Below are positions 6,530 through 64,000 of a stretch of DNA of 64,000 bases, piece after piece. A program made the translations under genes and the position numbers. The stretch spans positions 620,001 through 684,000 of the forward strand of contig NZ_JAUOTO010000001.1 of NCBI RefSeq assembly GCF_030546645.1. Reading direction: 5' to 3'. The notes under the pieces were generated by a model. That model made no database searches and had not been told where the DNA came from. It saw only the letters and a list, made by a program, of their open reading frames with translations. Numbering within the stretch: the stretch's first letter is position 1; every line of letters begins with the position of its first letter. The stretch comes from Flavitalea plasmicola. GTDB lineage: Bacteria; Bacteroidota; Bacteroidia; Chitinophagales; Chitinophagaceae.

Positions 6530-6544
6530 TTAAAATTTTAAAAA

Positions 6545-8887
6545 ATGTTGTCGATGAATTATAATAAGTTATCGGGTGTTTTCTTATTTACGGTTGTTTT
6601 AACTTCTTTGACCTTCGCGCAGGATCAAAAGTATTTGATTGCTGGAAAGATTGGCCATTTGAGTGCGCCTGCAAAAACATATTTGTTCTATGATGGAACT
6701 ATAGACTCGGCGGTGATAAAGGATGGTTATTTTCAGTTCGCCGGAATAACCCATCAGCCTATGTCTGCTCACATAGTTGTTAACGAACAGGGGACAGGCC
6801 CCTCGTCGGTCCAGATTGGCTACATCCCGTTTAAGCTGATGTTTTACATCGAACAGGGGAAAATATCCATCACGAGTCCGGACACCATTTCTAATGCCAC
6901 GGTCATCGGCGGGCCTTTGAATGCGGACTATACCAGGTTCAGGGCACTGTTAAAGCCGGTGGATGAGGAATTCAGGCGCTGCACCGACGATAGGCAGATG
7001 AATGCGATTGGAGCAAAGCAGAAGCAGCTCTACCTGCAGTTCATAAAGGATAATCCAGACTCTTACATGAGCCTTTTCATATTGAGGACTTATGCGGGAT
7101 TCAGTTCCTTACTAATACCTACCGTAATTTCGGAGCAGCCTGGCTATGCAGAGATCGATTCATTGTATAGTTCGCTCGACAAGCGTATTGTGACAAGTAG
7201 GGTTGGTGTTGAGATCGGGGATGCGTTAGCCAGGAAAAAAGGCGTAGCGATAGGCGCTATGGCCCCGGATTTTTCGCAAACGGATACAGCTGGTAAATGG
7301 GTGTCACTGCGTGACTTCAAAGGGAAGTATCTGTTGATCGATTTCTGGGCGAGCTGGTGTTCTCCGTGCCGGTCTGAGAATCCTAACCTGGTTAAAGCCT
7401 ACAATAAATACAAGTCAAAAGGTTTTGCCATACTGGGGGTATCGCTCAATTCTTCGAATGAAAGGGAGCAGTGGCTGAAGGCCATCCGCACGGATGGTTT
7501 GACATGGCCGCAGATTTCCGACCTGAAAGGCTGGAAGAATGAAGTAGCAAAGCTGTATTCGGTTAGGTATGCTCCTCAGAGCTTCCTCATCGATCCGGCC
7601 GGAAAAATTATCGCCGTAGATTTTATGGGTGACGCTTTGGAGAATAAGCTGCGTGAGATATTCCCTGATAATGCCGGGAAAAAAGCGTCCACTGCCGATT
7701 CATTGCTTAGGCGGGAGGAATTACGGGCGATCTATAATGAAAAGGATGCCGGAAAAAAAGAAAGGCTGTTCCAGGTTTGGGTGCAGCGTTTCCCACCGGA
7801 AGAATTCGATTCCAACGACAGGATACAGTATGATTATGCCCGCCATTCCGTCGCCATTGCTTATGCGCAGGCGAATAATATCGGCAAGGCATTAAAGTAC
7901 GCGAATATGCTGGAGAGTCCTTTTTGGAAGGGCGACGGTTGGGCGCGGGTTGCGGAAGCATTCGTTAAGACGGGGCATTTCACCGAAGCCGCTGAGTTAT
8001 ACAGGAGGGCCAGGGCCAATGCTTATACCTATTTTACGACAACCAGCAGTGATCCCGCCGTCTTAATAGCCGCGTCAGGGTATCCAATATATTCTATGGC
8101 TTTAAGTAAGGTGTATATAAAGCAAAACAAGCTCGATGAAGCGCGGTCAATCCTTAAAGAGATGTATGAGGGATCGGAAACTGCAGAAGCAGACGTATGC
8201 GAGGTATACGCCTCAGTGCTGATGCGGCTTGGCCGGCGCAGGGAGGCTTTCCAGGTCCTGGATAAAGCAGCAAGGTTTGGCGTGGCAAGTGACTTGATGA
8301 AGTCCGATCTGAAAAAAATGTATACAAAGGTCAAGGGAAGCGCTGCTGGTTACGTAGATTATCTCGCTGACATCAGGAGAGCGATGATAGAGAGGATCAA
8401 GGCCGAAGTCTCTAAGACAATCATCGATACTCCCGCCGCAAACTTTACCTTACAGGATGTGGATGGACATACTGTATCATTATCCGATCTGAGAGGGAAA
8501 ACAGTCGTGCTTGATTTCTGGGCCACCTGGTGCGGTCCTTGCAAAGCTTCTTTCCCTATCATGCAGACGGCTTTGCAGCGGTTTAAAGACGATCCGAATG
8601 TCAGGTTTTTATTTATTCATACCTGGGAGAAAGGTGCCGATGCTTCAAATGTTGCAAAAAAGTATATGATGGACAACCATTATCCATTTGAAGTATTGAT
8701 GGATGTAAAGAATGCGGAAGGCGTCAACCGTGTTGCTGAAGACTACAAACTCGGAGGAATCCCCACCAAGTTGGTGATCGACGGAAGGGGGAACATCCGT
8801 TTTTGGGTGACGGGTTTTTCAGGAGGGCAGGATGCCGCCGTGGAGGAGATAGCTGCGATGATCGAGCTTTCGAGGAAGCCTGTTTGA
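6545..8887 (+). CDS. Secreted two-thioredoxin (TlpA-like) protein with DUF4369 and TPR-like middle
   Basis: A 780-residue periplasmic protein. After a signal peptide (cleavage near TFAQ) comes a DUF4369-like beta domain (GKIGHLSAPAKTYLFYDG, residues ~25-130). A first TlpA/AhpC-type thioredoxin fold follows with active site WASWCSPC near residue 268, then a helical TPR-like stretch (~430-600) and a second thioredoxin fold with WATWCGPC near residue 659. Both Cys pairs are intact, so two disulfide reductase centres are expected. Single TlpA-DUF4369 proteins are common behind SusCD genes; carrying two complete domains is less usual. It ends the first SusCD operon, and a role in keeping exported partners reduced is an inference. 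ATG at 6554 is an alternative start. Confidence 0.88.
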   Translation: MLSMNYNKLSGVFLFTVVLTSLTFAQDQKYLIAGKIGHLSAPAKTYLFYDGTIDSAVIKDGYFQFAGITHQPMSAHIVVNEQGTGPSSVQIGYIPFKLMFYIEQGKISITSPDTISNATVIGGPLNADYTRFRALLKPVDEEFRRCTDDRQMNAIGAKQKQLYLQFIKDNPDSYMSLFILRTYAGFSSLLIPTVISEQPGYAEIDSLYSSLDKRIVTSRVGVEIGDALARKKGVAIGAMAPDFSQTDTAGKWVSLRDFKGKYLLIDFWASWCSPCRSENPNLVKAYNKYKSKGFAILGVSLNSSNEREQWLKAIRTDGLTWPQISDLKGWKNEVAKLYSVRYAPQSFLIDPAGKIIAVDFMGDALENKLREIFPDNAGKKASTADSLLRREELRAIYNEKDAGKKERLFQVWVQRFPPEEFDSNDRIQYDYARHSVAIAYAQANNIGKALKYANMLESPFWKGDGWARVAEAFVKTGHFTEAAELYRRARANAYTYFTTTSSDPAVLIAASGYPIYSMALSKVYIKQNKLDEARSILKEMYEGSETAEADVCEVYASVLMRLGRRREAFQVLDKAARFGVASDLMKSDLKKMYTKVKGSAAGYVDYLADIRRAMIERIKAEVSKTIIDTPAANFTLQDVDGHTVSLSDLRGKTVVLDFWATWCGPCKASFPIMQTALQRFKDDPNVRFLFIHTWEKGADASNVAKKYMMDNHYPFEVLMDVKNAEGVNRVAEDYKLGGIPTKLVIDGRGNIRFWVTGFSGGQDAAVEEIAAMIELSRKPV

Positions 8888-8892
8888 TGGAA

Positions 8893-8934
8893 GTTGCCCG
8901 ACCTGGATTACCCCGTCACCCTTCGGGATGCCGG
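8893..8934. repeat. tRNA-Gln 3'-end fragment, copy A
   Basis: GTTGCCCGACCTGGATTA here is identical over 17 bp to the 3' end (plus-strand reading) of the tRNA-Gln gene at 13550-13619. It continues as CCCCGTCACCCTTCGGGATG, which is repeated after copy C at 13388. It sits just after the thioredoxin gene stop and marks the left edge of the AT-rich patch. It reads like an attachment-site remnant or a dispersed tRNA-derived repeat. Confidence 0.75.
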
Positions 8935-8968
8935 AAAACTCCGTAGATCACTCAATTGTTAAACAAAT

Positions 8969-9457
8969 TTATATCGGTTTATTGATTCTCTTTTGCTTCC
9001 TGAATTGCAAAACAGAACCGATAATAAACAGGATGAAAAATAAAAGAAGTGTTTTCCCAATTAATGGATCTTTTGGTCCACTTGCCCAGGGATGTCCCAC
9101 AGGAACACGGCTAAGAGTTTCATTAACGGTGGGAATCAACGACAGGAAAAAGCTGAAGGTAAGAGAAAAATTCTCGATAAAACGATAGCGGTTGCTCCCC
9201 TGCTTATTTGCATAAAGAAAATAAGCTGCCAAAATCAGAAGTACAACTAACAGAGCAAGAATATGTCCCGGATTGACACCTTTAACACTGGATAAGCCTA
9301 AGGCGGTTAACGAGGTGATCAACGTACAATAAAAATATATCTTGCCGGTCAACTTGCTCAGATCTATTTTACCGTTTTTTATTAATGATATAACTGCTGC
9401 AACAATGGCTGCAACACCTATAATGGTATGAAAAATACCTAAATGTGATAATCTCAT
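8969..9457 (-). CDS. Small predicted membrane protein, unknown function
   Basis: A 162-residue protein with four likely membrane helices (IIGVAAIVAAVISLI, FYCTLITSLTALGL, HILALLVVLLILAAYFLY and LLLFFILFIIGSVLQF near the C-terminus), a fifth hydrophobic stretch around ENFSLTFSFFLSLI, and a basic C-terminal tail. I do not recognise a named family. It is divergent from the osmC gene, sharing a 297-bp control region, and is visibly AT-rich compared with the host genes to its left. The stop lies only 34 bp from repeat copy A. It is probably part of the acquired patch with osmC and the AraC regulator. Confidence 0.7.
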   Translation of the reverse strand: MRLSHLGIFHTIIGVAAIVAAVISLIKNGKIDLSKLTGKIYFYCTLITSLTALGLSSVKGVNPGHILALLVVLLILAAYFLYANKQGSNRYRFIENFSLTFSFFLSLIPTVNETLSRVPVGHPWASGPKDPLIGKTLLLFFILFIIGSVLQFRKQKRINKPI

Positions 9458-50825: not shown

Positions 50826-53255
50826 ATGAGACCAACCTTCTTCCTTTTCATCATTTGTATGATCGCCGCCCGGCTGCAAGCCCAATTCCCCACGATAGAG
50901 GAAAAGACCAAAGGGCTTAAAGCCTATCCCGGCTTCTTCAATTTTTACTGGGATGCACATACTGGGAAAATATGGCTGGAAATAAGCCGTCTGGACTCCG
51001 AAGTCCTTTATCAGCCCTCTCTGCCAGCCGGACTGGGCTCCAATGATGTGGGCCTCGACAGAGGATTGCTGGGCGCCGGCAGCATCGTCAGATTCAGCCG
51101 CATAGGCAATAAAGTACTGATGATCCAGCCGAACTATGACTTCCGGGCAGTCTCGAAAGACCAGGCGGAAAGACGGGCCGTCGAGCAGTCCTTTGCCCAG
51201 TCCACGCTTTGGGGCTTCACGGTAGAGGCTGAAAGCAGGAACGCCGTCCTTGTCGACGCCACTGGTTTCCTGCTCAGCGATGTGATGCAGATAGGCAACC
51301 GGCTTCGTGGCTCCCACCAGGGCAGCTATTCCCTGGATGCTTCACGCAGCGCCCTCTATCTCCCCGCCACAAAGAATTTTCCGCTGAATACAGAGATCGA
51401 ATCCACCCTCAGCTTTGTCAACAACGACGGACAGCCAGGAGAATTCGTTCGCGCGGTGACCCCGTCTCCGGGGGCCATTACCCTGCGTATTCATCATTCC
51501 TTCGTGCAACTGCCCGATAACAATTACCAACCCCGTGTTTTCGACCCTCGCGCAGGCTTTTTCACCATCTCGTATTTCGACTATAGCACGCCGGTGTATG
51601 AGCAGATAGAAAAACAATTCATCTGCCGCCACCGCCTGCAGAAGCAGGACCCGGGCGCCGCATTGAGCCTGCCCGTCAAGCCCATTGTATACTACCTTGA
51701 CAATGGAACCCCGGAACCCATTCGCAGCGCCTTGCTGACAGGCGCCGGCTGGTGGACAAAGGCTTTCGAGGCGGCAGGTTTTAAGGACGCTTTCCAGGTA
51801 AAGATCCTTCCCGACTCCGCCGATCCCAGGGATATCCGGTACAATATGATCAACTGGGTACACCGCTCCACCCGCGGCTGGTCCTATGGCGCCTCAGTCG
51901 TGGACCCACGGACGGGAGAGATCATCAAAGGCAATGTGACGCTGGGCTCCCTGCGCGTCCGCCAGGATTATCTCATCGCCACGGCATTGCTGGCCCCCTT
52001 TGAAAAGGGCGTTACCGTAGACACGGCCACCCCCATGATGAGAATGGCGCTCCACCGCCTCCGGCATCTGGCAGCCCACGAAGTAGGTCATACCCTTGGC
52101 CTGCTGCACAATTACATCGCCAGCGCACAGGGCCGGGCCAGCGTGATGGATTATCCTCATCCGCTCGTCAGCCTGGACAGCAAAGGCAACATCGATCTGT
52201 CGGATGCCTACACCGATGAGATAGGGGACTGGGACAAAGTGAGCATCACCTGGGGCTACCAGGAGATCCCGCAGGGCGCGGATGTTTCCACCACCCTGGA
52301 CAAGGTGATAATGGACGCAGCCGCCAGGGGGCTCACATTTATTTCGGATAGAGATGCCCGTGATCCGGGCGGACTGCACCCCAACGCCCATCTGTGGGAC
52401 AACGGCAAAGATCCCGTCACTGGACTACGGGAGCTGATGAAAGTAAGGGCCAAGGCACTCTCCCGTTTTGGAGAGAACAATATCCGCCCCGGCACACCCA
52501 TGGCTATGCTGGAAGACGTGCTGGTACCCGTCTACCTGATGCATCGGTATCAGCTGGAGGCCGTGACAAAGGAAGTGGGAGGATTGTATTATTCGTATGC
52601 GCTGAGGGGCGACGGCCAGGTGGTCACCCGTCCCCTGACAAAAGATATTCAAATGGGTGCGCTGTCGGCAGTGGCCGATTGCATGTCCCCGGAAGTACTG
52701 GCATTGCCGGATAATATCATCCGTCTTATTCCCCCGCGTCCGGCGGGATATCGCTATACGCCCGAGCTGTTCACCCATCGCACCGGCCTGGGCTTCGACC
52801 CATTGGGTGCGGCGGAGTCGGCTGCCGACCTGGGATTATCCTTCCTGTTCAATACGGACAGGCTCAACAGGATGGTGCAATACCAGGCGGAGAACAATGG
52901 ATTGGGGGTGAAGGAAATGGTTGACCTGCTGGTCAGCCGTACCTGGAAGGCCCCTCGTCTGCAGGGACTCCCGGAGCTCATCCGCCAGCAGAACGGGCAG
53001 ATGCTCTTAACGTACCTGCTATCCGCCTCCGTAGATGAAAAGACTTCCTTCGCGGCCAAGGCACAGCTCAAATATAGCCTCGACAGGTTGAAACCCTTAT
53101 TGGAAGATCTCCGTACAAAAAGTAAAGACACACCCGAAGAAGGAAATATATCCCTGGCATTGGAAAGACTGAAAGACCCTTCTAAAGCCAAAACCACGGT
53201 GCATTCAGTTACCACACCTCCGGGAGCGCCCATCGGCTGCGAGGATGCCTTTTAA
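50826..53255 (+). CDS. Zinc-dependent metalloprotease (DUF5117/DUF4953 type)
   Basis: An 809-residue exported zincin. The signal peptide [20 protein letters not shown] begins at ATG 50826, preferred over an upstream in-frame start at 50760. A DUF5117-type N-terminal beta region (~100-300) is followed by the metalloprotease region with [13 protein letters not shown] at about residue 418, the extended HExxHxxGxxH site binding zinc with three histidines, and VMDYPHP, the methionine-turn. The C-terminal helical part matches DUF4953. Members are common in Bacteroidota; substrates are unknown. The last 51 bp overlap the end of the convergent aldolase gene. Confidence 0.92.
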
Positions 53256-53999
53256 TTTATTCGCCATATTCCTCGCCCCTTCCGAGACAAACGTGCCATC
53301 CGCGCCGCAGGCGATCAGTCGTATCCCTGTATCATGGTACTTTCTATAATCATCGGGATTTTGTAGCAGGATGCCGGCAGCCTTACCGGCCTTTCGGGCC
53401 GCGTTCACCGTCGCTTGCACTGCATCCTTAAAGAGAGGATGATCGAATTGGCCGAAGATGCCTAATTCCATTGAAAGATCGGAAGGCCCGATGAAAAGAA
53501 CATCGATACCTGCCAATGCTGCAATTGCGTCCAGGTGCCCGAGCACTTCCGCCGTTTCTATCTGTACGATGCCCAGGATATTTTCCTTTGCATTTTTGTA
53601 ATAGTCAGAAAAGTTTTGGCCAAACCCGCTGGCGCGGACCATTTTTGCTATTCCCCTGCTGCCATCCGGGGGATAATGCAGACCGCTTGCCACAGCCGCC
53701 GCCTCCATCGCGTTTCCGATCCGGGGGACCATAACGCCTTCCGCACCCATATCCAGCACGCGGTGTATCCTTTGGCGTTGGGAGCTTTCCACCCTTATCA
53801 CGGCCGCGGCAGGGGTATGCTCCAGGGCCTGTAGCTGGTGAAGCACATCCTTTTCCACTCCGGCTCCGTGCTCAAGGTCTATCAGTACCCAATCGAACCC
53901 GGACATGCCAACGATCTCCGCCGTGACGGAACTACCGAGGTTCAGCCAGCATCCATGCAGCGTTTCCCCTTTTTGAAGGCGTTTTTTTAAATTTTTCAT
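53205..53999 (-). CDS. HpcH/HpaI-type aldolase
   Basis: A 264-residue class II aldolase of the HpaI/RhmA/GarL group, cleaving 2-keto-3-deoxy acids to pyruvate and an aldehyde. The motifs are HGCWLNLGSSVTAEIVGMSG, FDWVLIDLEHGAG, VMVPRIGNAMEA, the metal-binding IVQIETAEVL, and FIGPSDLSMELGIFGQFDHP. The final ~12 residues ([10 protein letters not shown]) are encoded in the overlap with the metalloprotease gene. Substrate is not assignable. It stands between the metalloprotease and the sulfatase locus with no evident operon partner. Confidence 0.93.
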   Translation of the reverse strand: MKNLKKRLQKGETLHGCWLNLGSSVTAEIVGMSGFDWVLIDLEHGAGVEKDVLHQLQALEHTPAAAVIRVESSQRQRIHRVLDMGAEGVMVPRIGNAMEAAAVASGLHYPPDGSRGIAKMVRASGFGQNFSDYYKNAKENILGIVQIETAEVLGHLDAIAALAGIDVLFIGPSDLSMELGIFGQFDHPLFKDAVQATVNAARKAGKAAGILLQNPDDYRKYHDTGIRLIACGADGTFVSEGARNMANKLKGILAADGRSRRCGN

Positions 54000-54076: not shown

Positions 54077-55243
54077 TTACTTGCCGCTGACACACCTGAA
54101 CCCCAAATGCTCCAGCCCGCTGTCTTCCGTTGTCTTCATCCGCCGGGATACGCGATATCCCGTACAGTAGCTCTCATTGCATAAAAAAGACCCGCCCCGG
54201 ATGACCCGCTTCTTTGCAAACGGCTCATCAGGATCATAGCTCTTTGCCGGTCCTTTTGGATTCGACGCTCCTTCCGATCCTTTGTAATAATTGTTATCAT
54301 AGTAGTCCGCACACCATTCCCAGGCATTGCCCGCCATATCAAAGAGGCCATATCCGTTAGGGGAGAAGGAGCCGACAGGCGCTGTAAAATAGAAGTGGTC
54401 GGCCTCCGTATTCTTATCCGGGAAATGCCCTTCCCAGAAATTACCTTTCTGGTGTCCCGTATTCACCGCCTCATTCCCCCAGGGATATACATTGTCTTTT
54501 AATCCGCCTCTTGCGGCATATTCCCATTCCGCTTCCGTAGGCAGCCGCTTGCCCGCCCAGCGACAATAGGCGATGGCGTCCAGCCAGGACACCTGCACCA
54601 CCGGGTAATGCTCCTTCCCTTTCAGATCGCTGCCGGCACCGTGCGGATGCCGCCAGCTGGCGCCCTGCTGCCAGGACCACCATTGGCTATAGTCATCCAA
54701 TGGCACTGCATGCGATGGAGGAGCGAACACCAGCGACGCAGGAACCAACAGGCTTTCATCCGGCTTGGGCGTGCCCGGAGGCAGATCTTTTTTCAGCTCC
54801 TCCCAATCGGGCTTCCGTTCAGCGGTGGTGATATAACCCGTCGCCTTAACAAAGGCGGCGAACTGTGCATTCGTCACTTCCGTCTTGTCCATCCAAAAGC
54901 CATTCACCGTGACCTTGTGCTTCGGGTATTCATCGGGTTGCGCCTGTCCATTGTCGCCCCCCATCCGGTAAGTACCGCCTTCGATCCATACCATGCCGGG
55001 ATGTTGGGGGTCGGTCTTGCCGGCAGCCACGGCCACTGCACCTGCTGCGCCCGGAGCAAACCTCGAAGGAAGATTCGACTCACACGACACCGCCTTTGCC
55101 TTCATCGCCACCACAGTATCTTTAGCCGCCGCCGGCTGCTTGACTTCCCCACAGGACATCATCACCATCCCCAATCCCCCCGCAAAAAACCATTTACTGC
55201 AAATCATACAAATATTTTTTTTCAACATAATCTTCCTCTTCAT
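54077..55243 (-). CDS. Formylglycine-generating enzyme (SUMF1 type), lipoprotein
   Basis: A ~388-residue enzyme expected to oxidise the sulfatase active-site Cys to formylglycine with O2 and copper. It has the FGE-sulfatase fold (EGGTYRMGGDNGQAQPDEYP, MDKTEVTNAQFAAFVKATGY, RLPTEAEWEYAARGG, NGYGLFDMAGNAWEWCADYY) and both catalytic cysteines, at about 355 and 360, in GGSFLCNESYCTGYRVSRR, which separates true FGE from non-catalytic relatives. The N-terminus is a lipoprotein signal (FFAGGLGMVMMSCGE), so it should be in the periplasm. Start ATG 55243 has GGAGG 6 bp ahead; upstream in-frame ATGs lie in the heptanucleotide repeat. Its 5' end overlaps the hydroxylase gene by 50 bp. Confidence 0.9.
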   Translation of the reverse strand: MKRKIMLKKNICMICSKWFFAGGLGMVMMSCGEVKQPAAAKDTVVAMKAKAVSCESNLPSRFAPGAAGAVAVAAGKTDPQHPGMVWIEGGTYRMGGDNGQAQPDEYPKHKVTVNGFWMDKTEVTNAQFAAFVKATGYITTAERKPDWEELKKDLPPGTPKPDESLLVPASLVFAPPSHAVPLDDYSQWWSWQQGASWRHPHGAGSDLKGKEHYPVVQVSWLDAIAYCRWAGKRLPTEAEWEYAARGGLKDNVYPWGNEAVNTGHQKGNFWEGHFPDKNTEADHFYFTAPVGSFSPNGYGLFDMAGNAWEWCADYYDNNYYKGSEGASNPKGPAKSYDPDEPFAKKRVIRGGSFLCNESYCTGYRVSRRMKTTEDSGLEHLGFRCVSGK

Positions 55244-56399
55244 ATCCAACCTCCGGCGCCTCACCCACCTCCGCTTGCAGCTTGTGGCTTGCAGCTTGCA
55301 GCTCTTCATATCCAACCTCCGGCACCTCACCCACCTCCGCTCGCAGCTTGTAGCTTGCAGCTTGAGGCTCTCCGCTCACAGCTCGCAGCTGTTCATCCCC
55401 CACTTCCGGCCCCCCGGCCGACAGCTCGCTGCCCGCCTTCCGGGACTTGAAAATCGGCCATAGGAACTGCGCATACCATTCCTCGCCCTGGTAATACGAC
55501 AACCCAAAAGTTGCAGGATATCGCCGCGTGATGATCCCCGTACCAAAGATAACATCCCATATAAAGAACATATTCCCGAAATTTCCTTTATAGTGACCCA
55601 CTCCGTCGTCATTGCTTGCCGCATGATGCGCATGATGCGTAGCCGGTGTGGAGATCAGCCGCTCTAATACCCAGGCGACGGGATGCAGCCATTTCCTGCT
55701 GTATAAAGGCTTGTCCCAGGGAATGCTGGAATGGGCGGCCATCGTGATCAGGGATTTTACGCCTGTCACCAGCAGGGCCGCATATCCCAGTCCAAGGTAC
55801 ACCAACGCCGCCGTAAGATAGATCTGGGAAAAAAAGATCGTGTATATGATATTCTGACGGCCGGCCATCGCCATTCCCATGTAAGGCGCCGAATGATGCG
55901 TCCGGTGGAACCGCCAGAGAAAAGGTACCTGGTGATGTAGCCGGTGATACCAGTATTGCGTGAGGTCATCCGCCACCGCCACGATGAGAAAACCCCAGAA
56001 CAAAGGCACCCAGGCAAATACATTCTTCAATCCCGGCAGCAATACAGGCAGCAGCCATAACGTGAAATATACCACGGCCGGCCGGATAAACACCTTGGGC
56101 CCGATGAAACAAACGATATCCAGTATCCTTTCATTCCGGCTCCACTTTTTCTCATAGAGCCCCAGCAGGAACTCGGCAATGCCCACGATCACCGTCAGCA
56201 CCGGTAGCCCCCAGGTACTGAGATTTTCGAAGATGGCTTTTACCACCGGGATAGAAGGCTTTACCGCAGGCCTTAACCAGGGCTTATCCCCCGTGATAGA
56301 CAAGTAAGCCGCCAGTAGCAGCACCGGCAATGCATACAGCAGTAGGCTGATGGACGCGTCCCGAAGGATCTTACGACCTGTTTCTTTTTTCAACGACAT
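55194..56399 (-). CDS. Fatty acid hydroxylase / sterol desaturase superfamily protein
   Basis: A 401-residue membrane di-iron oxygenase-like protein. Four or more membrane helices carry the histidine clusters YWYHRLHHQVPFLW, FHRTHHSAP and ATHHAHHAASNDD, the metal-binding pattern of the superfamily. The enzymatic part ends near residue 330 (AQFLWPIFKSRK). The remaining ~70 residues are low-complexity, made largely of the heptanucleotide and 66-bp repeats (LQAASYKLRAEVGEVPEVGY), and run on into the start of the FGE gene. Hydroxylation or desaturation of a membrane lipid is the family role; a link to sulfated lipid or polysaccharide use is speculative. Confidence 0.88.
   Translation of the reverse strand: MSLKKETGRKILRDASISLLLYALPVLLLAAYLSITGDKPWLRPAVKPSIPVVKAIFENLSTWGLPVLTVIVGIAEFLLGLYEKKWSRNERILDIVCFIGPKVFIRPAVVYFTLWLLPVLLPGLKNVFAWVPLFWGFLIVAVADDLTQYWYHRLHHQVPFLWRFHRTHHSAPYMGMAMAGRQNIIYTIFFSQIYLTAALVYLGLGYAALLVTGVKSLITMAAHSSIPWDKPLYSRKWLHPVAWVLERLISTPATHHAHHAASNDDGVGHYKGNFGNMFFIWDVIFGTGIITRRYPATFGLSYYQGEEWYAQFLWPIFKSRKAGSELSAGGPEVGDEQLRAVSGEPQAASYKLRAEVGEVPEVGYEELQAASHKLQAEVGEAPEVGYEEEDYVEKKYLYDLQ
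55236..55392. repeat. 66-bp tandem duplication with heptanucleotide core
   Basis: Two copies of a 66-bp unit start at 55236 and 55302 (CTCTTCATATCCAACCTCCG in both) and are followed by GCAGCTTG-type 7-bp units. The unit is in frame in the hydroxylase gene (22 residues: LQAASYKLRAEVGEVPEVGY, then EE, repeated) and includes the ribosome site and first codons of the FGE gene, so the FGE start region exists twice. Confidence 0.85.
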
Positions 56400-56409
56400 A
56401 AAAATGGTT

Positions 56410-56526
56410 TTAGAAATGTTGAATGAGCTTTAATCCGACAAAAAAGATGAGAAAAGGGATCACTGCGACAACAATGCCGACCAGGATCTTTTTGGCCAGT
56501 ATCACGGCATCATGGTAAGTCATCAT
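56410..56526 (-). CDS. 38-residue single-pass membrane protein
   Basis: A short open frame beginning MMTYHDAVILAKKILVGIVV and continuing with a hydrophobic stretch (AVIPFLIFFVGLKLIQHF) to its stop 10 bp before the hydroxylase gene. It has one clear membrane helix with lysines before it, sits on the same strand as its neighbours, and its start is preceded by the terminator of the sulfatase gene. No family is recognised. I rate it as probably real because it fills the gap neatly and has a coherent membrane-protein pattern. Confidence 0.55.
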   Translation of the reverse strand: MMTYHDAVILAKKILVGIVVAVIPFLIFFVGLKLIQHF

Positions 56527-56540
56527 AATTTTTTTTAAAA

Positions 56541-56570
56541 GGCCCCCTCTCCAAAATGAAAGAGAGGGCC
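56541..56570 (-). terminator. Terminator after the distal sulfatase gene
   Basis: Minus strand GGCCCTCTC stem against GAGAGGGGGCC with a two-base bulge, followed by TTTT, 14 bp after the sulfatase stop. It separates the sulfatase genes from the small membrane protein, hydroxylase and FGE genes, at least in part. Confidence 0.7.
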
Positions 56571-56583
56571 ATGGGTTAGAGAA

Positions 56584-58422
56584 TTATCTCGTTTGATGGA
56601 TCCTTCTGTGGAAAACATCATCCCAGTCGATGAAAGGGTAGATATTGTATTTCCGGGCATTTTCATCAAACAATGCCTTTAACGCTTCCAGCTTCTCCGG
56701 GTATTTTTTCGCCAGGTCGATGCGCTCGTTAAAGTCCTCGTTGAGATTATACAGCTCCCAGACGTCCTTGTCATATCCATGCTCGGAAGCGCCGGGGCCT
56801 CCAAAAGTTACCCCGCTGCGCAACAGGTCCAGTATATCGGGATGATGGAGCGTTTCAGCCTTCCAGCCATCTTTGTAGATGGAGCGCGCCCCGAAAATAT
56901 AATAGTACTGCTCGGTATGTCGCGAAGGGGCCTTGGCGTCCGCAAACGAATAGACCAGCGAAGTACCCTGGATGCTGTCCTGCGCAATACCCCGTATGGC
57001 GGTGGGCGCCTTGATCCCGACGAACTCCAGGGTGGTAGGCAGCAGATCGATGACATGCCCGTATTGCGTGCGGATCTCGCCCTTGAAGGGTATCCCTTTG
57101 GGATAGAACGCGATCAATGGGTTGCGTGTGCCTCCTTCGGAATTGGCATCCTGTTTCCAATATTTGAACGGCGTGTTGGCGGCCTGCGCCCAGCCCAGGG
57201 GATAATTGGTCTGTTTGCCATCCGGCGTTCCGATCTCGCCGATCTTATCTAAATTGTCTTTTACGGCCTGCTCATCAGGCGGAGCCTTGGCGAAGATCTC
57301 CTTGCTGATCACACCATGGAAAGTGCCTTCCTTGCTTGCGCCATTGTCGCCGATGATGACGAAGATCAAAGTATTGTCCAACTGCCCCGACTCCTTTAAG
57401 AAGTTCACCAGTCTGCCAACCTCGAAATCCGTATAGGTGAGATAGCCCGCATAGACTTCCATAAATCGGGCATAGAGCTTTTTCTGGTTGGCAGACAAAG
57501 TATTCCAGGCGGGGATGTTCTGATTGCGTTCCGGCAATTGTGCCGCCGCCGGTATGATGCCTTTCTTCTTTTGATTTAAAAAGACCTTTTCCCGGAAAGC
57601 ATCCCAGCCATCGTCAAACTGGCCTTTGTAGGCATCGCTCCAGGACTTTTCCACCTGGTGGGGCGCGTGTGTAGCGCCGGGCGAATAATAGAGGAAGAAG
57701 GGTTTGTTCGGCGCCGCTTTCTTCTGCCGCTGGATATAGCTGATGGCCTTGTCTGTGATCTGGGCGCTCAGATGCCTGCCATCGGGCGTCACATGCGCAT
57801 TGTCTTCCACCAGGTCCGGCACATACTGATCTGTCTGTGATCCGAGGAAGCCGAAGAAATGTTCGAATCCCTTGCCGCTGGGCCACCGGTCGAAAGGCCC
57901 GGCATCCGTGGCATCCTCATCCGGCGTCAGCCCGTATTTCCCTACGGCAAATGTGTTGTAGCCATTGTCCCGGAGGATCTCCGCCACCGTGCCGTCACGG
58001 GAGGGTATCCGGCCGTCGTATCCGGGAAATCCTGCCGAAAGTACCGTATGGGAAAAACCTCCTTCATGCACCGAATGATGATTGCGGCCCGTGAGCAAGG
58101 CTGATCGGGTAGGGGCGCAGATACCCGCCGTATGAAAGTTCGTATATCGCAATCCGTTGCCGGCCAGGCTATCGAACGTAGGGGTGCGGATGACACCGCC
58201 GAAAGTGCTGCTGGCGCCAAACCCTACGTCGTCCAGTATGACCCACACGACATTGGGCGCTCCTGCGGGCGGCTTGACGGATGGTGCCCACCATTCTTTT
58301 GATTCAGCCAGCGTCTTGCTCACCACTCCCTGGTAAGGTTGCTGCTCCTGCGCCGCTGCATCTGAAAAAGCCAGGCTTCCGCCCGCCAGTATCATCCAAC
58401 TAAAGATCCTCTTCTTATACAT
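56584..58422 (-). CDS. Cys-type arylsulfatase, distal copy
   Basis: A 612-residue type I sulfatase. Signal peptide (LAFSDAAAQ), then the metal motif WVILDDVGFGASSTFGG and the FGly motif ICAPTRSALLTGR, with Cys about residue 102 as the residue to be converted. Later motifs are GKYGLTPDEDATDAGPFDRW and IIGDNGASKEGT. Cysteine (not serine) in the motif fits the nearby FGE. It shares most of its sequence with the proximal sulfatase at 59352, and the two are separated by a binding-protein-like gene. Hydrolysis of a sulfate ester from a SusCD-imported substrate is expected; the substrate is unknown. Confidence 0.94.
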   Translation of the reverse strand: MYKKRIFSWMILAGGSLAFSDAAAQEQQPYQGVVSKTLAESKEWWAPSVKPPAGAPNVVWVILDDVGFGASSTFGGVIRTPTFDSLAGNGLRYTNFHTAGICAPTRSALLTGRNHHSVHEGGFSHTVLSAGFPGYDGRIPSRDGTVAEILRDNGYNTFAVGKYGLTPDEDATDAGPFDRWPSGKGFEHFFGFLGSQTDQYVPDLVEDNAHVTPDGRHLSAQITDKAISYIQRQKKAAPNKPFFLYYSPGATHAPHQVEKSWSDAYKGQFDDGWDAFREKVFLNQKKKGIIPAAAQLPERNQNIPAWNTLSANQKKLYARFMEVYAGYLTYTDFEVGRLVNFLKESGQLDNTLIFVIIGDNGASKEGTFHGVISKEIFAKAPPDEQAVKDNLDKIGEIGTPDGKQTNYPLGWAQAANTPFKYWKQDANSEGGTRNPLIAFYPKGIPFKGEIRTQYGHVIDLLPTTLEFVGIKAPTAIRGIAQDSIQGTSLVYSFADAKAPSRHTEQYYYIFGARSIYKDGWKAETLHHPDILDLLRSGVTFGGPGASEHGYDKDVWELYNLNEDFNERIDLAKKYPEKLEALKALFDENARKYNIYPFIDWDDVFHRRIHQTR

Positions 58423-58425
58423 TTT

Positions 58426-59328
58426 TTAATTTTTGTTGAGAACGGTCAGGGCGCGCGCTTCAGACTGGGCCACCGCACCGTCCAGGTTAATGAATCCGTA
58501 TGCATGATTGTACTGCTGTCCCGCGGAAAGCACCCATTGCAGAAATGAAGTGACATACCCCTCCCGGTCGCCCTTGCGGACCAGGACATTTACATTTTCC
58601 AGCGGTATCCGGGGATGATGGGTCCGCTCGATGAAGCCCAGCACTTCATCGAGCGATGCGTAAACGTTCTCGTCCGCATCGGTGCGCCCGTTCTCATTCA
58701 GGTCGATGGGTATGATGGCGATGCTATCCACGGGCTTCCTGGTAGCGAGGTCATACAGAAAGCCGAGGTTATTATACGAGATGCCGCTGGGATCTCTTTT
58801 CACGGCCTCCAGGAGGTCCCTGTCGTCTCCCGTGACGCCCCTGCCTTTTATGTCCTGCTGCCCGTTGCCGAAATGGTTGGCAAAAGCGATGCTGGCGCAG
58901 GCCGGCTGCTGCCGTTTGTAAACGGTGAAGGTATAGAGGGAGGGAATAGATTCCTGCCTGACGGAGAAATACACCTGCCGGAAAGCCGAGTCATTGAATC
59001 CCCTGGCCTGCAGGGCAGCCACGTCTGGCCGCCGGCTGCTCACCACCGGCAGCTGCGCATACCGGGTAACCGCGATGGCCGTCTGGTCCTCCTTCACGTC
59101 GGTGGACTGCAGGGTATGAGAGACGATCAGCACGTCCGCACTGTCCGCAGGCACCTTGCTGATCCGGAACTTCACTTCTGGATGCAGCTTCGTGTACTCA
59201 TCCGCCCATTTTTGAAAGAGCGGATAGGCAAGCCGGGTGCCCGTTATCCGGACGGTCCGGGAAGGCTGCGCCAGCGAGGACGCCAGGAGACCCAGCCAGC
59301 CAAGGAAAAAGAATGATAGTTTTTTCAT
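58426..59328 (-). CDS. Periplasmic substrate-binding-like protein (PstS-like fold)
   Basis: A 300-residue exported protein (signal WLGLLASSLAQ). RTVRITGTRLAYPLFQKWAD and the later VKRDPSGISYNNLGFLYDLA are the TGxxxxxPL and GISYNxxGF motifs of phosphate/sulfate-type PBP proteins (PstS-like). No ABC transporter gene is nearby. It is three bases from the distal sulfatase stop/start boundary and 23 bp after the proximal sulfatase, so the three are cotranscribed. Capture of phosphate, or of the sulfate released by the sulfatases, is possible but unproven. Confidence 0.83.
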   Translation of the reverse strand: MKKLSFFFLGWLGLLASSLAQPSRTVRITGTRLAYPLFQKWADEYTKLHPEVKFRISKVPADSADVLIVSHTLQSTDVKEDQTAIAVTRYAQLPVVSSRRPDVAALQARGFNDSAFRQVYFSVRQESIPSLYTFTVYKRQQPACASIAFANHFGNGQQDIKGRGVTGDDRDLLEAVKRDPSGISYNNLGFLYDLATRKPVDSIAIIPIDLNENGRTDADENVYASLDEVLGFIERTHHPRIPLENVNVLVRKGDREGYVTSFLQWVLSAGQQYNHAYGFINLDGAVAQSEARALTVLNKN

Positions 59329-59351
59329 AACATTGTTTTTTTAAGGATGAC

Positions 59352-61205
59352 TTATTTGATCAAAGCCTGTGTCTCGCTGCCATTGGGATGATGAATCCTT
59401 TTGTTATATACATCATACCAGGAGATCAGGGGGTAGAGATGGTTCTTCTCCGCCTGCTCGTCGAATTTCTTTTTCAGATCGGCTAATTTTTCCGGGAATT
59501 TCTTTGCCAGGTCGACCCGTTCGTTGAAATCTTCATTGAGATTATACAGCTCCCATACATCTTCATCGAAAGACTTGTCTGCGATGGTCTGCCCCGGCTT
59601 GAAATCGAAGTCTACATTGTCGGGATGATGCGCCGCCTCCGCCTTCCAGCCATTGTAGTAGATGCTGCGGGAGCCGAAGATATAATAGTGCTGTACCAGG
59701 TGACGGGAAGCGGCCCCTCCGTCATTGAAGGAATAGGCCAGCGAAGTCCCTTGCACGGAATCCTGCTTGATTCCCCTGATAAATTCAGGCTTAGCCAGGC
59801 CCACCAGCTCAAGCGTAGTTGGCAGCAGGTCGATGACATGCCCATATTGAGGACGGATACCGCCCTTGTCCCGGATACCCTTCGGATAAAAGGCGATGAG
59901 CGGATTGTGCGTGCCTCCTTCGGCATCCGCATCCTGCTTCCATTCGCGGAATGGCGTATTGGCGGCCTGCGCCCAACCCAGGGGGTAGTTGGTAAAGCCC
60001 TGAGCCGTGCCGATGGAATCGATGTCTGCCAGGTTCGACTGTAAATAATCCGCCTCCGTCTTCAGCCGCGCGGAATTTTTCTTTGGTTCGATAACGCCTT
60101 CCACGGTCCCTTCCTTGCTGGCCCCATTGTCTCCGATGATGACAAAGATCAGGGTGTTGTCCAGCTGCCCGGCTTCTTTCAGGAAGTTCACCAGCCTGCC
60201 GATCTGGTAGTCTGTATAGGTGAGGTATCCCGCATACACTTCCATAAATCGGGCGAATAGTTTGCGTTGGTCTGCCGTCAACGCGTTCCATGCCTGGATG
60301 CGCGCATTGCGGGCCGGCAGCTGTGCATACGCCGGTACGATTCCCAGCTTCTTCTGGTTCGCCAGCACTTTTTCCCGGAAAATATCCCAACCCTCGTCGA
60401 ACTTCCCCTTGTATTGGTCGCTCCAGTATTTGTCCACCTGGTGAGGCGCGTGTGTCGCCCCTGGGGAATAATACAGGAAGAAAGGCTTTCCCGGCGCGAT
60501 CTTCTCATGACGGGTGAGATAGCTGATGGCCTTATCCGTTATCTGCTCATTGAGATGCCGCCCGTCAGGCGTGACATGGGCATTGTCCTCCACCAGGTCC
60601 GGCTTGTACTGATCCGTTTGAGAGCCGAGGAAGCCAAAGAAATGATCGAAACCCTTCCCCGTAGGCCAGCGATCAAAGGGGCCTACATCCGTGGCGTCCT
60701 CGTCCGGCGTCAGGCCATATTTGCCCACGGCATAGGTGTTATAGCCGTTTTGCCGCAGTATTTCCGCAATCGTTCCGTCATTGGAAGGGATACGGCCATC
60801 ATAACCCGGAAAGCCCGCCGATAGGGAGATATGTGAAAAGCCTCCTTCGTGGACAAAATGGCTGTTGCGGCCCGTGAGCAGCGCGGAGCGGGTAGGGGCG
60901 CAGATGGCGCAGGTGTGGAAGTTGGTATAACGCAGACCATTGTTCGCCAGGCTATCGAACGTAGGCGTCCGGATCACACCGCCGAAAGCGCTGCTCGCGC
61001 CGAATCCTACATCGTCCAGTATGATCCACACGACATTGGGCGCCCCCGCGGGAGGTTTGGCAGGCGATGCCCACCATTCTTTCGAGTCGGCCAATGTCTT
61101 GCCCACCACTCCCTGGTAGGCCGGCGCATCCTGCGCCCTTAATTCAACCACACATAAAGAGGCCGCAATAACTAGCAACACACCTAAAAAAAATTTTCTT
61201 TTCAT
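59352..61205 (-). CDS. Cys-type arylsulfatase, proximal copy
   Basis: A 617-residue paralogue of the distal sulfatase, with the same architecture: signal peptide, WIILDDVGFGASSAFGG, FGly motif CAICAPTRSALLTGR (Cys about residue 102), GKYGLTPDEDATDVGPFDRW and IIGDNGASKEGT. It differs mainly near the substrate side (KNSARLKTEADYLQSNLADI), which suggests a different position or sugar preference. It follows the SusD gene after a heptanucleotide repeat spacer. Same maturation route as the distal copy is expected. Confidence 0.94.
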   Translation of the reverse strand: MKRKFFLGVLLVIAASLCVVELRAQDAPAYQGVVGKTLADSKEWWASPAKPPAGAPNVVWIILDDVGFGASSAFGGVIRTPTFDSLANNGLRYTNFHTCAICAPTRSALLTGRNSHFVHEGGFSHISLSAGFPGYDGRIPSNDGTIAEILRQNGYNTYAVGKYGLTPDEDATDVGPFDRWPTGKGFDHFFGFLGSQTDQYKPDLVEDNAHVTPDGRHLNEQITDKAISYLTRHEKIAPGKPFFLYYSPGATHAPHQVDKYWSDQYKGKFDEGWDIFREKVLANQKKLGIVPAYAQLPARNARIQAWNALTADQRKLFARFMEVYAGYLTYTDYQIGRLVNFLKEAGQLDNTLIFVIIGDNGASKEGTVEGVIEPKKNSARLKTEADYLQSNLADIDSIGTAQGFTNYPLGWAQAANTPFREWKQDADAEGGTHNPLIAFYPKGIRDKGGIRPQYGHVIDLLPTTLELVGLAKPEFIRGIKQDSVQGTSLAYSFNDGGAASRHLVQHYYIFGSRSIYYNGWKAEAAHHPDNVDFDFKPGQTIADKSFDEDVWELYNLNEDFNERVDLAKKFPEKLADLKKKFDEQAEKNHLYPLISWYDVYNKRIHHPNGSETQALIK

Positions 61206-61238: not shown

Positions 61239-61301
61239 GCAGCTTGCAGCTTGTAGCTTGCAGCTCGCAGCTCGCCGCTCACCGCTCGCCGCTCGCAACT
61301 C
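61239..61301. repeat. Heptanucleotide repeat between SusD and sulfatase
   Basis: Nine 7-bp units in tandem: GCAGCTT, GCAGCTT, GTAGCTT, GCAGCTC, GCAGCTC, GCCGCTC, ACCGCTC, GCCGCTC, GCAACTC. The array starts directly at the SusD stop codon and fills most of the gap to the sulfatase gene. Confidence 0.9.
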
Positions 61302-62883
61302 ACTCCCACCCGGGGTTTTGTTTAAAATTGGGATTACGTCCCCCATACAGGTCGATCTCCGTCTGGGGAATGGGAAATAAAGTGTCTTTTAAGGTGGCGG
61401 CAGCCTTGGGATTGCCCACCATGCTATGAACATTCTGTAAATAATACTGCCCGGGACCCAGGTCCGTCCTTCTCACCAGGTCGAACCAACGCTGGCTCTC
61501 CTGGATGAATTCCTTCCTTCTTTCTGTAAAGACAGCATCCCTGAAATCGGATGCGCTCAGGCCGGCCGGCAGATCATAAGTATGATCAGTATAGCCTCCA
61601 TTGGCCGTATAGGAGTTATAGGCCCTGGCGCGCACGATATTGATGGCGGCATAAGCATCCGCCGTAGGTGCGCCGTTGAGCTCATTCAATGCTTCTGCAT
61701 ACAGCAGCAATACTTCGGCATACCGGATCACAGGAAAATTCACCTTACTGTTGGCGCCTTGCGTGCCTTGCAACGCAGTGACGAAGCCTGAACTCTGATC
61801 GACGAACTTGAGGAAGTTGAAGAAAGGCCATTGCACCCATTTGCCGGTTGTCTGGTTGAACAGCGAATCATAAAAAGTGGCGCTTCTTCGCTGATCGGTG
61901 AGATCGAAGAGGTGCACCACGCTGCTGTCCGCGGGAATGTCGGCCGTATAGGCGGAATTGCTCCAGGTGAACGAGCTCAAAGTATTGGTGCTGGTAAAGC
62001 CGCCCGCCGTGCCGTTGAATTGCGCCGAGAAGACATGCTCTTTCCCATTCTTGGTACCCGGCTGAAAAGCGTCGGAAAATTTGACGAACAGATCATAGCC
62101 ATAATTGCCCGAAGTGGCATCCGACAGGCCCGCCGTACCGGCTGTGATGACCTTCTTCAGCTCGGTGACCGCGTTGCTCCAGTCCCGCCGCGTTACGTAC
62201 ACTTTAGCCAGCAAGGCATGCGCCGCACCGCTGGTGGCCCTTCCTACATTCACCCCTGTATAGCCGGCAGGCAGCGCAGTGGCCGAATCCAGGTCGACGA
62301 TGATCTGCTGGTAGACGGAATCCCGGGAAGTCCGGCTTACCAGCTCCCCGGCGTTGGCCACCGTACCCTGGTCGTGTAACACAAGCGGCACGGGCCCAAA
62401 AAGGCGGACAAGGTCGAAATACAGAAGCGCACGGATAAAACGGGCCTCCCTGACAAGGTTGGCGGCAGAATGGGAGGGATCCACAAACTGGGTGGCCGGT
62501 ATGGCCGGGATCCTGTCGATGGCGATATTCGCCCGGTTGATGCCCCAGTACAGCTGTGCGTAGATCTTATGCACCCTGTCATTGGTGGCGACATACGTAG
62601 CCGTACCCAATGCACGCACGTCCGGGTTGGTATTGGAAGGGCTATACACCTGGTTATCGCTGGTATTGTCCACGATCAGGTTGAGATTACGGCCATAAAC
62701 AGGAAAATCATTGTTGATGTCCGTGGTCAAAGTGCTGTATACGGCCGTCACTGCGGCAACAGCGTCGCTTTGTGTCTGATAAAAGTTTTCAGGGGTAAGA
62801 CTTCCTTGCGGATGCTCGCTCAGTTTCTTGCAGGAGAACAACAAGACCCCCAGGGAAAAGAAGAGTATTTTTTGCATGTTCAT
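61300..62883 (-). CDS. SusD/RagB family nutrient-binding lipoprotein, second locus
   Basis: A 527-residue surface lipoprotein (lipobox LLFSC at residue ~17). Helices include VREARFIRALLYFDLVRLFG, the classic SusD motif, and AHALLAKVYVTRRDWSNAV; the end is IDLYGGRNPNFKQNPGWE. It pairs with the SusC gene just upstream (11 bp gap) and is followed by sulfatases, so a sulfated glycan or glycolipid is a reasonable ligand. Either of the two first methionines may be the start. Confidence 0.94.
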   Translation of the reverse strand: MNMQKILFFSLGVLLFSCKKLSEHPQGSLTPENFYQTQSDAVAAVTAVYSTLTTDINNDFPVYGRNLNLIVDNTSDNQVYSPSNTNPDVRALGTATYVATNDRVHKIYAQLYWGINRANIAIDRIPAIPATQFVDPSHSAANLVREARFIRALLYFDLVRLFGPVPLVLHDQGTVANAGELVSRTSRDSVYQQIIVDLDSATALPAGYTGVNVGRATSGAAHALLAKVYVTRRDWSNAVTELKKVITAGTAGLSDATSGNYGYDLFVKFSDAFQPGTKNGKEHVFSAQFNGTAGGFTSTNTLSSFTWSNSAYTADIPADSSVVHLFDLTDQRRSATFYDSLFNQTTGKWVQWPFFNFLKFVDQSSGFVTALQGTQGANSKVNFPVIRYAEVLLLYAEALNELNGAPTADAYAAINIVRARAYNSYTANGGYTDHTYDLPAGLSASDFRDAVFTERRKEFIQESQRWFDLVRRTDLGPGQYYLQNVHSMVGNPKAAATLKDTLFPIPQTEIDLYGGRNPNFKQNPGWE

Positions 62884-62894
62884 ATCTTTAATGA

Positions 62895-64000
62895 TTAAAA
62901 GGTCACATTGAGACCCACCGTATAGGTCCTGTAATTCGGATAAACTCCATAATCAATGCCTGGCTGCAGGTTGTTCTGATCATAGAAATTGGCCTCGGGG
63001 TCGAGCCCTTTGTATTGGGTGATGGTCAGAAGGTTTTGCGCCGATACATAGACCCTCACTTGTTTGGCGCGTATCCGGGCAGCGACGTCCTTTGAAAGGT
63101 TATAGCCCAGGGTGATATTCTTCAGCCGTATATAGGTGCCGTCCTCGATGTAGATGTCGGCCACCTGGACCACGGGCGCATTGACCACTTTGGGAGATCT
63201 GCCCCGGGGATTGGCAACGGAGTCCCACCTGTCCAGCAGTGCCGTGGAGACATTCTGGGTAGTGGTGGTTTTTTCCAGCTGCTGCTGCAGCAGGTTGAAC
63301 AGCTTATTGCCGAAAGACCCCTGGAAAAAGACCGAAAGATCAAAGTTCTTATACGTCAAGTTATTATTCAGGCTGGCCGTGAACTTGGGCTGGGCATTGC
63401 CCAGGGGGTGCTTGTCCGCCGTCGTCACCGCGCCATCACCCGTTATGTCCACATATTTCCTGTCACCCGTCACCTGCGAAACGCCCGAAAGCTTAGGCGC
63501 CGTCTTGGAACCATAGACATCGCTCGTGGTCAAAAGCCCTGCCGTGCTGTACCCCCAGAAAGTACCCACCGGCAATCCCACCTTCACGATCACGGGAGAC
63601 ACCTGACCGGTGGGAGCGACGGGGAAGAAAGCGTTGCTGGGCCCCAGGTTCAGGATCTTGTTGCGATTGGCGGCATAAATGAGCGAGGATTTCCAGGTGA
63701 AGTCCCGTGCCCGGATATTTTCCGTATTGATGGTGATCTCTACCCCTTTGTTTTCCAGGCTTCCGATGTTCTCCGAGGCGGATGCATAGCCGGAAGATAA
63801 GGGGATCAGCCCGGCCCCGCTGATAAATAAGCTGGTTGTTTTTTTATAGTATACGTCGGCAGTCAGCTGGATACGGCGGCCCAGCAGGCTGGCGTCGACC
63901 CCCGCATTGTATTGTGTCGTGGTCTCCCAGCTGAGATCAGGGTTGGATAGTTGAGTAGGCGCGAGTCCATTCGTGCCGGCCAGGGGACTGCCCAGGTAAT
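62895..64000 (-). CDS. SusC/RagA TonB-linked receptor, C-terminal part (gene starts beyond window)
   Basis: The frame is open from the window end to 62895, giving ~368 residues of barrel: GVDASLLGRRIQLTADVYYK, SSGYASASENIGSLENKGVE, FTWKSSLIYAANRNKILNLG, then DITGDGAVTTADKHPLGNAQ and the final YTVGLNVTF. These are the standard late strands of SusC. The plug, any STN domain and the signal peptide lie outside. It heads the sulfatase locus operon. Confidence 0.95.
   Translation of the reverse strand, partial: YLGSPLAGTNGLAPTQLSNPDLSWETTTQYNAGVDASLLGRRIQLTADVYYKKTTSLFISGAGLIPLSSGYASASENIGSLENKGVEITINTENIRARDFTWKSSLIYAANRNKILNLGPSNAFFPVAPTGQVSPVIVKVGLPVGTFWGYSTAGLLTTSDVYGSKTAPKLSGVSQVTGDRKYVDITGDGAVTTADKHPLGNAQPKFTASLNNNLTYKNFDLSVFFQGSFGNKLFNLLQQQLEKTTTTQNVSTALLDRWDSVANPRGRSPKVVNAPVVQVADIYIEDGTYIRLKNITLGYNLSKDVAARIRAKQVRVYVSAQNLLTITQYKGLDPEANFYDQNNLQPGIDYGVYPNYRTYTVGLNVTF

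Follow-up and report, generated by a model that had tools for sequence, protein, structure and literature searches.

A predicted lipoprotein formylglycine-generating enzyme encoded with two putatively exported Cys-type sulfatases in Flavitalea plasmicola

The stretch of DNA analysed here, 64 kb of the Flavitalea plasmicola genome (contig NZ_JAUOTO010000001.1, forward-strand positions 620,001 to 684,000; hereafter the window, in whose positions all coordinates are given), carries a minus-strand gene cluster that encodes a formylglycine-generating enzyme (FGE) with a lipoprotein signal together with two Cys-type sulfatases with Sec-type signal peptides. In the usual picture, bacterial formylglycine (FGly) is made before export. 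Here, we consider it likely that the exported sulfatases are activated outside the cytoplasm by the lipid-anchored FGE, with FGly being made after Sec translocation. The likely transcription order is SusC-like, SusD-like, sulfatase 1, PBP-like, sulfatase 2, hydroxylase-like, FGE and then an HpcH/HpaI aldolase (Table 1). A preliminary description of the locus had placed the FGE beside the two sulfatases; all three genes are indeed on one strand with the sulfatases upstream, but they do not directly adjoin, given that the hydroxylase-like gene intervenes and the PBP-like gene separates the sulfatases.

By sequence, active site and fold the window protein is a canonical FGE, for which Cu/O2-dependent Cys conversion is predicted. 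It matches PF03781 at 287 bits (cut-off 23.3) and 33 distinct PDB sequences, with the T. curvata FGE (6s07) as the best. Its motif GGSFLCNESYC aligns with GGSFLCHESYC of T. curvata and GGSYMCHRSYC of human FGE, and is invariant in a 24-row FGE alignment whose rows were chosen with the motif already known. An AlphaFold model built from 24 sequences has a mean predicted local distance difference test score of 80.7, and residues 1–67 fall below 50, as would be expected of a signal followed by a tether. Foldseek places T. curvata, human and S. coelicolor FGEs first (6xtp at 2.9e-34; 5nyy with a TM score of 0.91 of the target). A scan with the window FGE as query recovered the Cys pair in 56 of 80 related loci; among the 24 without it, 23 align at <38% identity and one (L090) at 41% over part only, and hence the pair in the window is not a chance feature. 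The window FGE falls among the FGEs of Bacteroidota and is 72% identical to that of locus L125, where the order FGE–sulfatase–sulfatase–SusD–SusC is as in the window and the sulfatases are approximately 30% identical to those of the window.

A 417-residue open reading frame with a GTG start at 55330 was rejected as the FGE gene because it is over-extended into a 66-bp tandem repeat common to the end of the upstream gene. Each of the two likely ATG starts yields a precursor reading ...WFFAGGLGMVMMSC|G, so a cytosolic start was also rejected. A cytosolic FGE would lack an export signal, and the window FGE has a lipobox signal both by sequence and by our signal rule. Hence, the initial claim of both catalytic cysteines and a lipoprotein signal is upheld by the alignment, the PF03781 match, the lipobox sequence and the rule call of a signal peptidase II type signal (SPII). 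From the lipidated Cys the sequence reads CGEVKQ; given that surface-export motifs after this residue in Bacteroidota are acidic, the periplasmic face of the outer membrane is the expected location, and the FGE probably resides there.

The two sulfatases are 72% identical to each other. Both have CAPTR and a Sec-type signal by rule, so that the signal peptides and the motif Cys described earlier were recovered by rule and motif search; the twin-arginine (Tat) motif is absent from both, and both are S1 sulfatases in the sense of a PF00884 match plus CxPxR with Cys. The active-site elements DD, H.PH, GDNG and K are present, GKYG replaces the GKxH of 86 of the 133 neighbour sulfatases, and the usual active-site His seems to be missing from both. 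Among the collected neighbour sulfatases the closest relative, at 62%, is from a Sphingomonas (L049), followed by 14 at 38–46%, of which eight are signal-less Actinomycetota proteins. The Sphingomonas relative also has GKYG. The FGE type differs between the window and these relatives, and hence this sulfatase subfamily occurs with both kinds of maturase; a Sec-type signal is found in 9/9 members beside an exported FGE and 3/13 beside a cytosolic one (22 of 26 rows scored).

Table 1 Features of the cluster, with window positions and supporting evidence
Feature	Positions	Strand	Evidence
FGE, lipoprotein form	54077..55243 (start ATG 55243 or 55228)	-	PF03781 E 1.7e-85; PDB FGE 4.8e-77; Foldseek
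FGE signal peptide and lipobox MMSC	55151..55228; predicted lipidated Cys codon 55151-55153	-	sequence; signal rule calls SPII
FGE catalytic motif GGSFLCNESYC, two Cu(I)-binding Cys (C350, C355)	54164..54196	-	alignment to T. curvata and human FGE
Cys-type sulfatase 1, signal peptide, CAPTR	59352..61205	-	PF00884 2.4e-63; arylsulfatase 1hdh 1.5e-64
CAPTR of sulfatase 1, predicted FGly site	60888..60902	-	motif search
Cys-type sulfatase 2, signal peptide, CAPTR	56584..58422	-	PF00884 1.7e-58
CAPTR of sulfatase 2, predicted FGly site	58105..58119	-	motif search
PBP-like protein between the sulfatases, N-terminus signal-like by eye	58426..59328	-	PF12849 3.3e-5, under cut-off
Fatty-acid-hydroxylase-like protein, overlapping the FGE start	55194..56399	-	PF04116 4.2e-24
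SusD-like lipoprotein, upstream of the sulfatases, same strand	61300..62883	-	PF07980 3.9e-35
SusC-like receptor, C-terminal part, leaves the window	62895..63998	-	open reading frame open at window end; position and sequence by eye
HpcH/HpaI aldolase, after the FGE	53205-53999	listed with minus-strand genes	

In the host genome, which is 8.7 Mb and rated 100% complete, six proteins match PF03781 and only the window FGE has the Cys pair; by eye the others are GldK-like, GldJ-like, EgtB-like and two more, with L011 and L012 among the GldK/GldJ type. PF00884 matches nine proteins, with an LtaS-like membrane protein in third place by strength, and CxPxR is confined to the two window sulfatases. 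Beyond these, [CS]x[PA]xR is matched by two strings of Ser type only, both in L004, a membrane protein with a partial profile match. The anaerobic sulfatase-maturating enzyme (anSME) is the other candidate maturase: anSMEs of the AtsB/ChuR type also serve exported sulfatases and, unlike FGE, are oxygen-independent radical SAM enzymes. No TIGR03942 match was found in the genome at E≤1e-5, in a search that was positive in 11 of 14 control genomes, two of them over the cut-off. A cytosolic FGE or anSME elsewhere in the genome, for which the preliminary description had left room, was thus found neither among the PF03781 matches nor with TIGR03942.

To place the window FGE among its relatives, 221 loci were scanned for FGE and neighbour sulfatases, and export signals were called by a home-made rule (h-region, charge, lipobox, AxA and twin-Arg) and not by SignalP. 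The sample of Chitinophagales, the order of the window, comprised 80 loci from a longer match list, mostly full-length, plus the window, and 79 of the 81 passed the motif rule; of the two that failed, L201 keeps the Cys pair with the first motif residue changed (RSGSFLCNDSYC) and its N-terminus is lipobox-like, and L199 retains a single Cys. For other phyla 20/25, 21/23 and 19/20 listed matches were taken. The counts exclude FGE matches lacking the Cys pair, and also sulfatases whose motif was unreadable or whose gene was open at the 5' end. FGEs called exported number 71/79 in the order, 14/19 in Planctomycetota (the phylum of the L030 genome), 4/21 in Pseudomonadota (that of L049), 0/19 in Actinomycetota (that of L040) and 17/56 in the set from the window-FGE scan. 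By eye, three of the eight other FGEs of the order have clear signals (L129, L137 and L143), two look cytosolic (L197 and L198) and three with non-ATG starts are ambiguous (L136, L156 and L178). A separate lipobox test was passed by 65/79 FGEs of the order compared with 0/19 in Actinomycetota. The signal-bearing form persists throughout the order and reappears in Planctomycetota and in some Verrucomicrobiota, which rules out an artefact of start-codon choice. In one sulfatase-rich genus (f18 g85), an apparent lack of FGE proved to be a threshold effect: in a low-threshold search 13 of 14 genomes (L268–L280), 10 of them missed at 1e-30 with the window query, were found to encode a compact FGE that carries GGSFLCS[TV]SYC and, as judged by eye, a lipobox; the remaining genome (G208) showed a GldK-like protein only. 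An N-terminal CC[ATGSV]P-like motif is frequent in signal-less FGEs from Actinomycetota, Bacillota and other groups (L033–L066).

Presence and absence were surveyed in 298 genomes of the order (FGE at E≤1e-30, PF00884 at E≤1e-35 and TIGR03942 at E≤1e-60, with at most six or seven candidates scored per genome). FGE was found in 111, PF00884 in 239 and TIGR03942 in one, under its cut-off. PF00884 matches occur in 109/111 genomes with FGE and 130/187 without (matched by eye; Fisher p 3e-11). The first of the two FGE genomes without PF00884 (G196; L266/L324) has a truncated FGE that continues in frame into sulfatase-like C-terminal sequence, with no PF00884 match at 1e-35, and the second (G262) has an FGE-like protein with one motif Cys. 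Across the 29 genomes of loci from the window-FGE scan, TIGR03942 at 1e-40 was matched in 0/13 with an exported or unclear FGE (L015 and L028 being unclear) compared with 5/16 with a cytosolic FGE, three of them over the cut-off. The 141 neighbour sulfatases, found with a profile built from Cys-type seeds, comprise 131 Cys-type, one Ser, one Thr and eight unreadable.

Across phyla, Sec-type signals were called on 56/61 sulfatases beside exported FGEs and on 17/68 beside cytosolic FGEs (129 pairs; Fisher p 1.9e-15); the other 51 of the latter comprise 41 without a signal and 10 with Tat. Per locus after curation, a Sec-type sulfatase is found in 41/43 loci with an exported and 6/47 with a cytosolic FGE. 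The tree used for this comparison has 128 rows, 90 of them with both labels; inspection by eye changed 21 FGE labels (seven to exported, 14 to unclear), and four sulfatase labels were set by hand. A single origin of the exported FGE, represented by a tree in which the 61 exported rows together form one side of a split, was rejected (approximately unbiased test, p 3.9e-30, on a quick tree with labels curated after the signals had been seen). The best single contrasts are one genome and one locus. Genome G197, from the family of the window, encodes two FGEs: an exported one beside two Sec-type sulfatases with CTPSR and CTAGR (L190), and one without a signal whose two neighbour sulfatases, both with CTAGR, are likewise signal-less (L197). 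In L031, from a Phycisphaerales metagenome-assembled genome, one chain (open reading frame at approximately 6462–8970) joins a signal peptide, a sulfatase with CTPSR and a C-terminal FGE domain with GGSFLCAPGFC. This fused chain is a candidate self-activating sulfatase.

Several points weigh against activation outside the cytoplasm. Six curated loci (L039, L049, L228, L229, L231 and L234) have a Sec-type sulfatase beside a cytosolic FGE, and at two loci with an exported FGE every sulfatase was called signal-less. In the Sphingomonas locus L049, the closest relative of the window sulfatases is Sec-like and adjoins a signal-less FGE of the other main FGE lineage, which is the strongest evidence in the data that Sec export needs no exported FGE. 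FGE location changes 15 times on the tree with uncurated labels and three times after curation, and phylogenetically independent contrasts amount to two pairs on the FGE tree and three on the sulfatase tree, which gives no test power. We regard the compartment match as a consistent pattern that is confounded by ancestry and falls short of phylogenetic proof. In favour of the signal calls, the core classifier calls a signal at 12 of 2,190 internal Met (SPII at 0 of 2,190); against them, the full rule, which tries several starts, is laxer and has a higher false rate. The structural disulfide Cys, at the position of human C218, was discarded as a compartment marker, as it occurs in 33/61 exported and 24/56 cytosolic FGE rows and does not discriminate. 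TatC is present in the host genome, so Tat export is possible in principle. Lastly, the 130 genomes of the order with PF00884 matches and no detected FGE count against the reading, although some of these matches may be LtaS-like. In 16 genomes without FGE (1e-30) or anSME (1e-60), 20 of the 20 sulfatases read are Cys-type with signal-like N-termini; the anSME threshold is perhaps too strict, given that a Bacteroides control was positive at 1e-5 but not at 1e-60.

With these points weighed, the conserved exported form in the order, the compartment match and the lack of another maturase among those searched for still favour activation after translocation, as the preliminary description had suggested. 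From the computed gene identity, active site, fold, lipobox, genome inventory and conservation, we infer a sulfatase maturation unit that works outside the cytoplasm and is complete in itself. The two sulfatases would leave the cytoplasm unfolded via Sec with the catalytic Cys unmodified, and the FGE would be exported, lipidated on Cys26 and held by a flexible tether of approximately 40–50 residues, probably on the periplasmic face of the outer membrane. The CAPTR segment of an emerging sulfatase would then bind the FGE groove and, by analogy with the family, the Cys would be converted to FGly with O2 at a bis-cysteine Cu(I) site, which is predicted to be loaded with copper. The FGE, the sole maturase identified in the genome, would thus act like the animal endoplasmic reticulum enzyme, in a copper-handling compartment. 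Beyond this genome, we lean slightly towards a broader reading. In it, maturation after translocation by an exported FGE would be one standard way in which aerobic Bacteroidota and many Planctomycetota activate their exported Cys-type sulfatases, the FGE would have changed its location on several occasions, and partner sulfatases would usually take the matching route (Sec with an exported FGE, Tat or no export with a cytosolic one), even within G197; bacteria would thus have their own ER-style activation.

A first alternative, which we consider unlikely, is that part of the lipoprotein precursor pool reaches its fold while still in the cytoplasm and there modifies the sulfatase precursors, so that maturation is the usual pre-export one. 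The Sec-like sulfatases beside signal-less FGEs in 6/47 curated loci make pre-export maturation of Sec substrates seem possible. However, Sec substrates cross the membrane unfolded, an export signal conserved on 71/79 sampled FGEs would be poor design for a cytoplasmic enzyme, and L031 puts both enzymes behind one signal peptide. In favour of this alternative, FGly was detected in a Pedobacter sulfatase that has a predicted Sec signal and was produced without it in E. coli, together with the M. tuberculosis FGE (PMC8746622).

A second alternative, slightly less likely again, is that the exported FGE acts on another exported protein, with the sulfatases matured by another enzyme or working unmodified. 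The 16 genomes with exported Cys-type sulfatases and no detected maturase speak for it; four of them (G095, G187, G027 and G053) were re-searched at 1e-12, where none of the nine listed matches has the Cys pair, and the FGE search of the other 12 was at 1e-30 only. Against it stand the FGE and sulfatase genes, which are same-strand neighbours in the window and in L125, the co-occurrence of FGE with PF00884 and the predominance of Cys-type proteins among neighbour sulfatases (131/141, with the profile built from Cys-type seeds). The four re-searched genomes (L296–L303 and L316–L320) would also be compatible with a third maturase. That the window protein is a non-catalytic FGE-fold lipoprotein of Bacteroidota like GldK/PorK or GldJ is highly improbable: GldK- and GldJ-like lipoproteins occur in the same genome (L011 and L012, named by eye) and the GldK and GldJ models match the protein at 170 and 70 bits, but these lie under the cut-offs of 350 and 458 (EgtB and PvdO models are likewise far under theirs), the first 26 PDB structure matches are true FGEs with PorK from rank 30 down, and both catalytic Cys are present, whereas PorK, a repurposed FGE fold with a structural role in the type IX secretion system, is without them (PMC12421860).

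Activation of the window sulfatases outside the cytoplasm would resemble the scheme of animal cells, and differ from the usual bacterial activation before export. The window FGE shares the fold (1y1e, TM score 0.91 of the target) and Cys pair of human SUMF1/FGE, which acts in the endoplasmic reticulum on newly made sulfatases after their translocation; it differs in its predicted lipid anchor, in the Gram-negative envelope as its setting and in being encoded in a putative operon with its likely substrates. The FGEs of T. curvata, S. coelicolor and M. tuberculosis are cytosolic. The window FGE is 44% identical to the first two (Foldseek alignment) and has the same Cu(I) motif but, unlike the 19 Actinomycetota FGEs sampled, it has a signal. 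Cys-type sulfatases are described as typically cytosolic in one review (PMC3920027), and bacteria are thought to avoid cytosolic copper (PMC5171941). Elsewhere, Formosa sulfatases have been co-expressed with a Formosa FGE (PMC8511951), an FGE domain is fused to bufferin and cytochrome c (PMC12452194), and strict anaerobes carry 20 and 11 PF03781 genes that are supposed to be inactive or of other function (PMC6388578). Phrases such as 'periplasmic FGE' had no match in the open-licence PMC literature, and the available portions of PMC10154612, PMC9723792, PMC10880615, PMC11500405, PMC7279497, PMC9096561 and PMC5066984 hold no statement on exported FGE. Hence, no description of an exported bacterial FGE was found in this literature, which is weak evidence of absence given that subscription journals are mostly outside it.

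If the reading is correct, a copper- and oxygen-dependent protein modification moves into the envelope. This would account for the activation of exported sulfatases in aerobic Bacteroidota that lack anSME, and would prompt the question of where the electrons come from in an oxidising compartment. It would also offer a route to active sulfatases or aldehyde-tagged proteins in the bacterial periplasm. With one identified maturase and two substrates, the genome is an unusually simple test case.

A promoter and terminator scan gave counts near those of shuffled sequence (12 compared with 8.0, sd 2.5, and 13 compared with 11.0, sd 3.8) and was not used. Intergenic gaps are mostly 3 to 94 bp, with 184 bp ahead of the hydroxylase gene, and a single transcript for the FGE–sulfatase cluster is plausible given that the gaps are mostly short. 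The overlap of the hydroxylase and FGE genes was created by the 66-bp tandem repeat, which has 2.1 copies (55236–55371) across the hydroxylase 3' end and the FGE 5' end. The PBP/PstS-like protein encoded between the two sulfatases may bind an anion.

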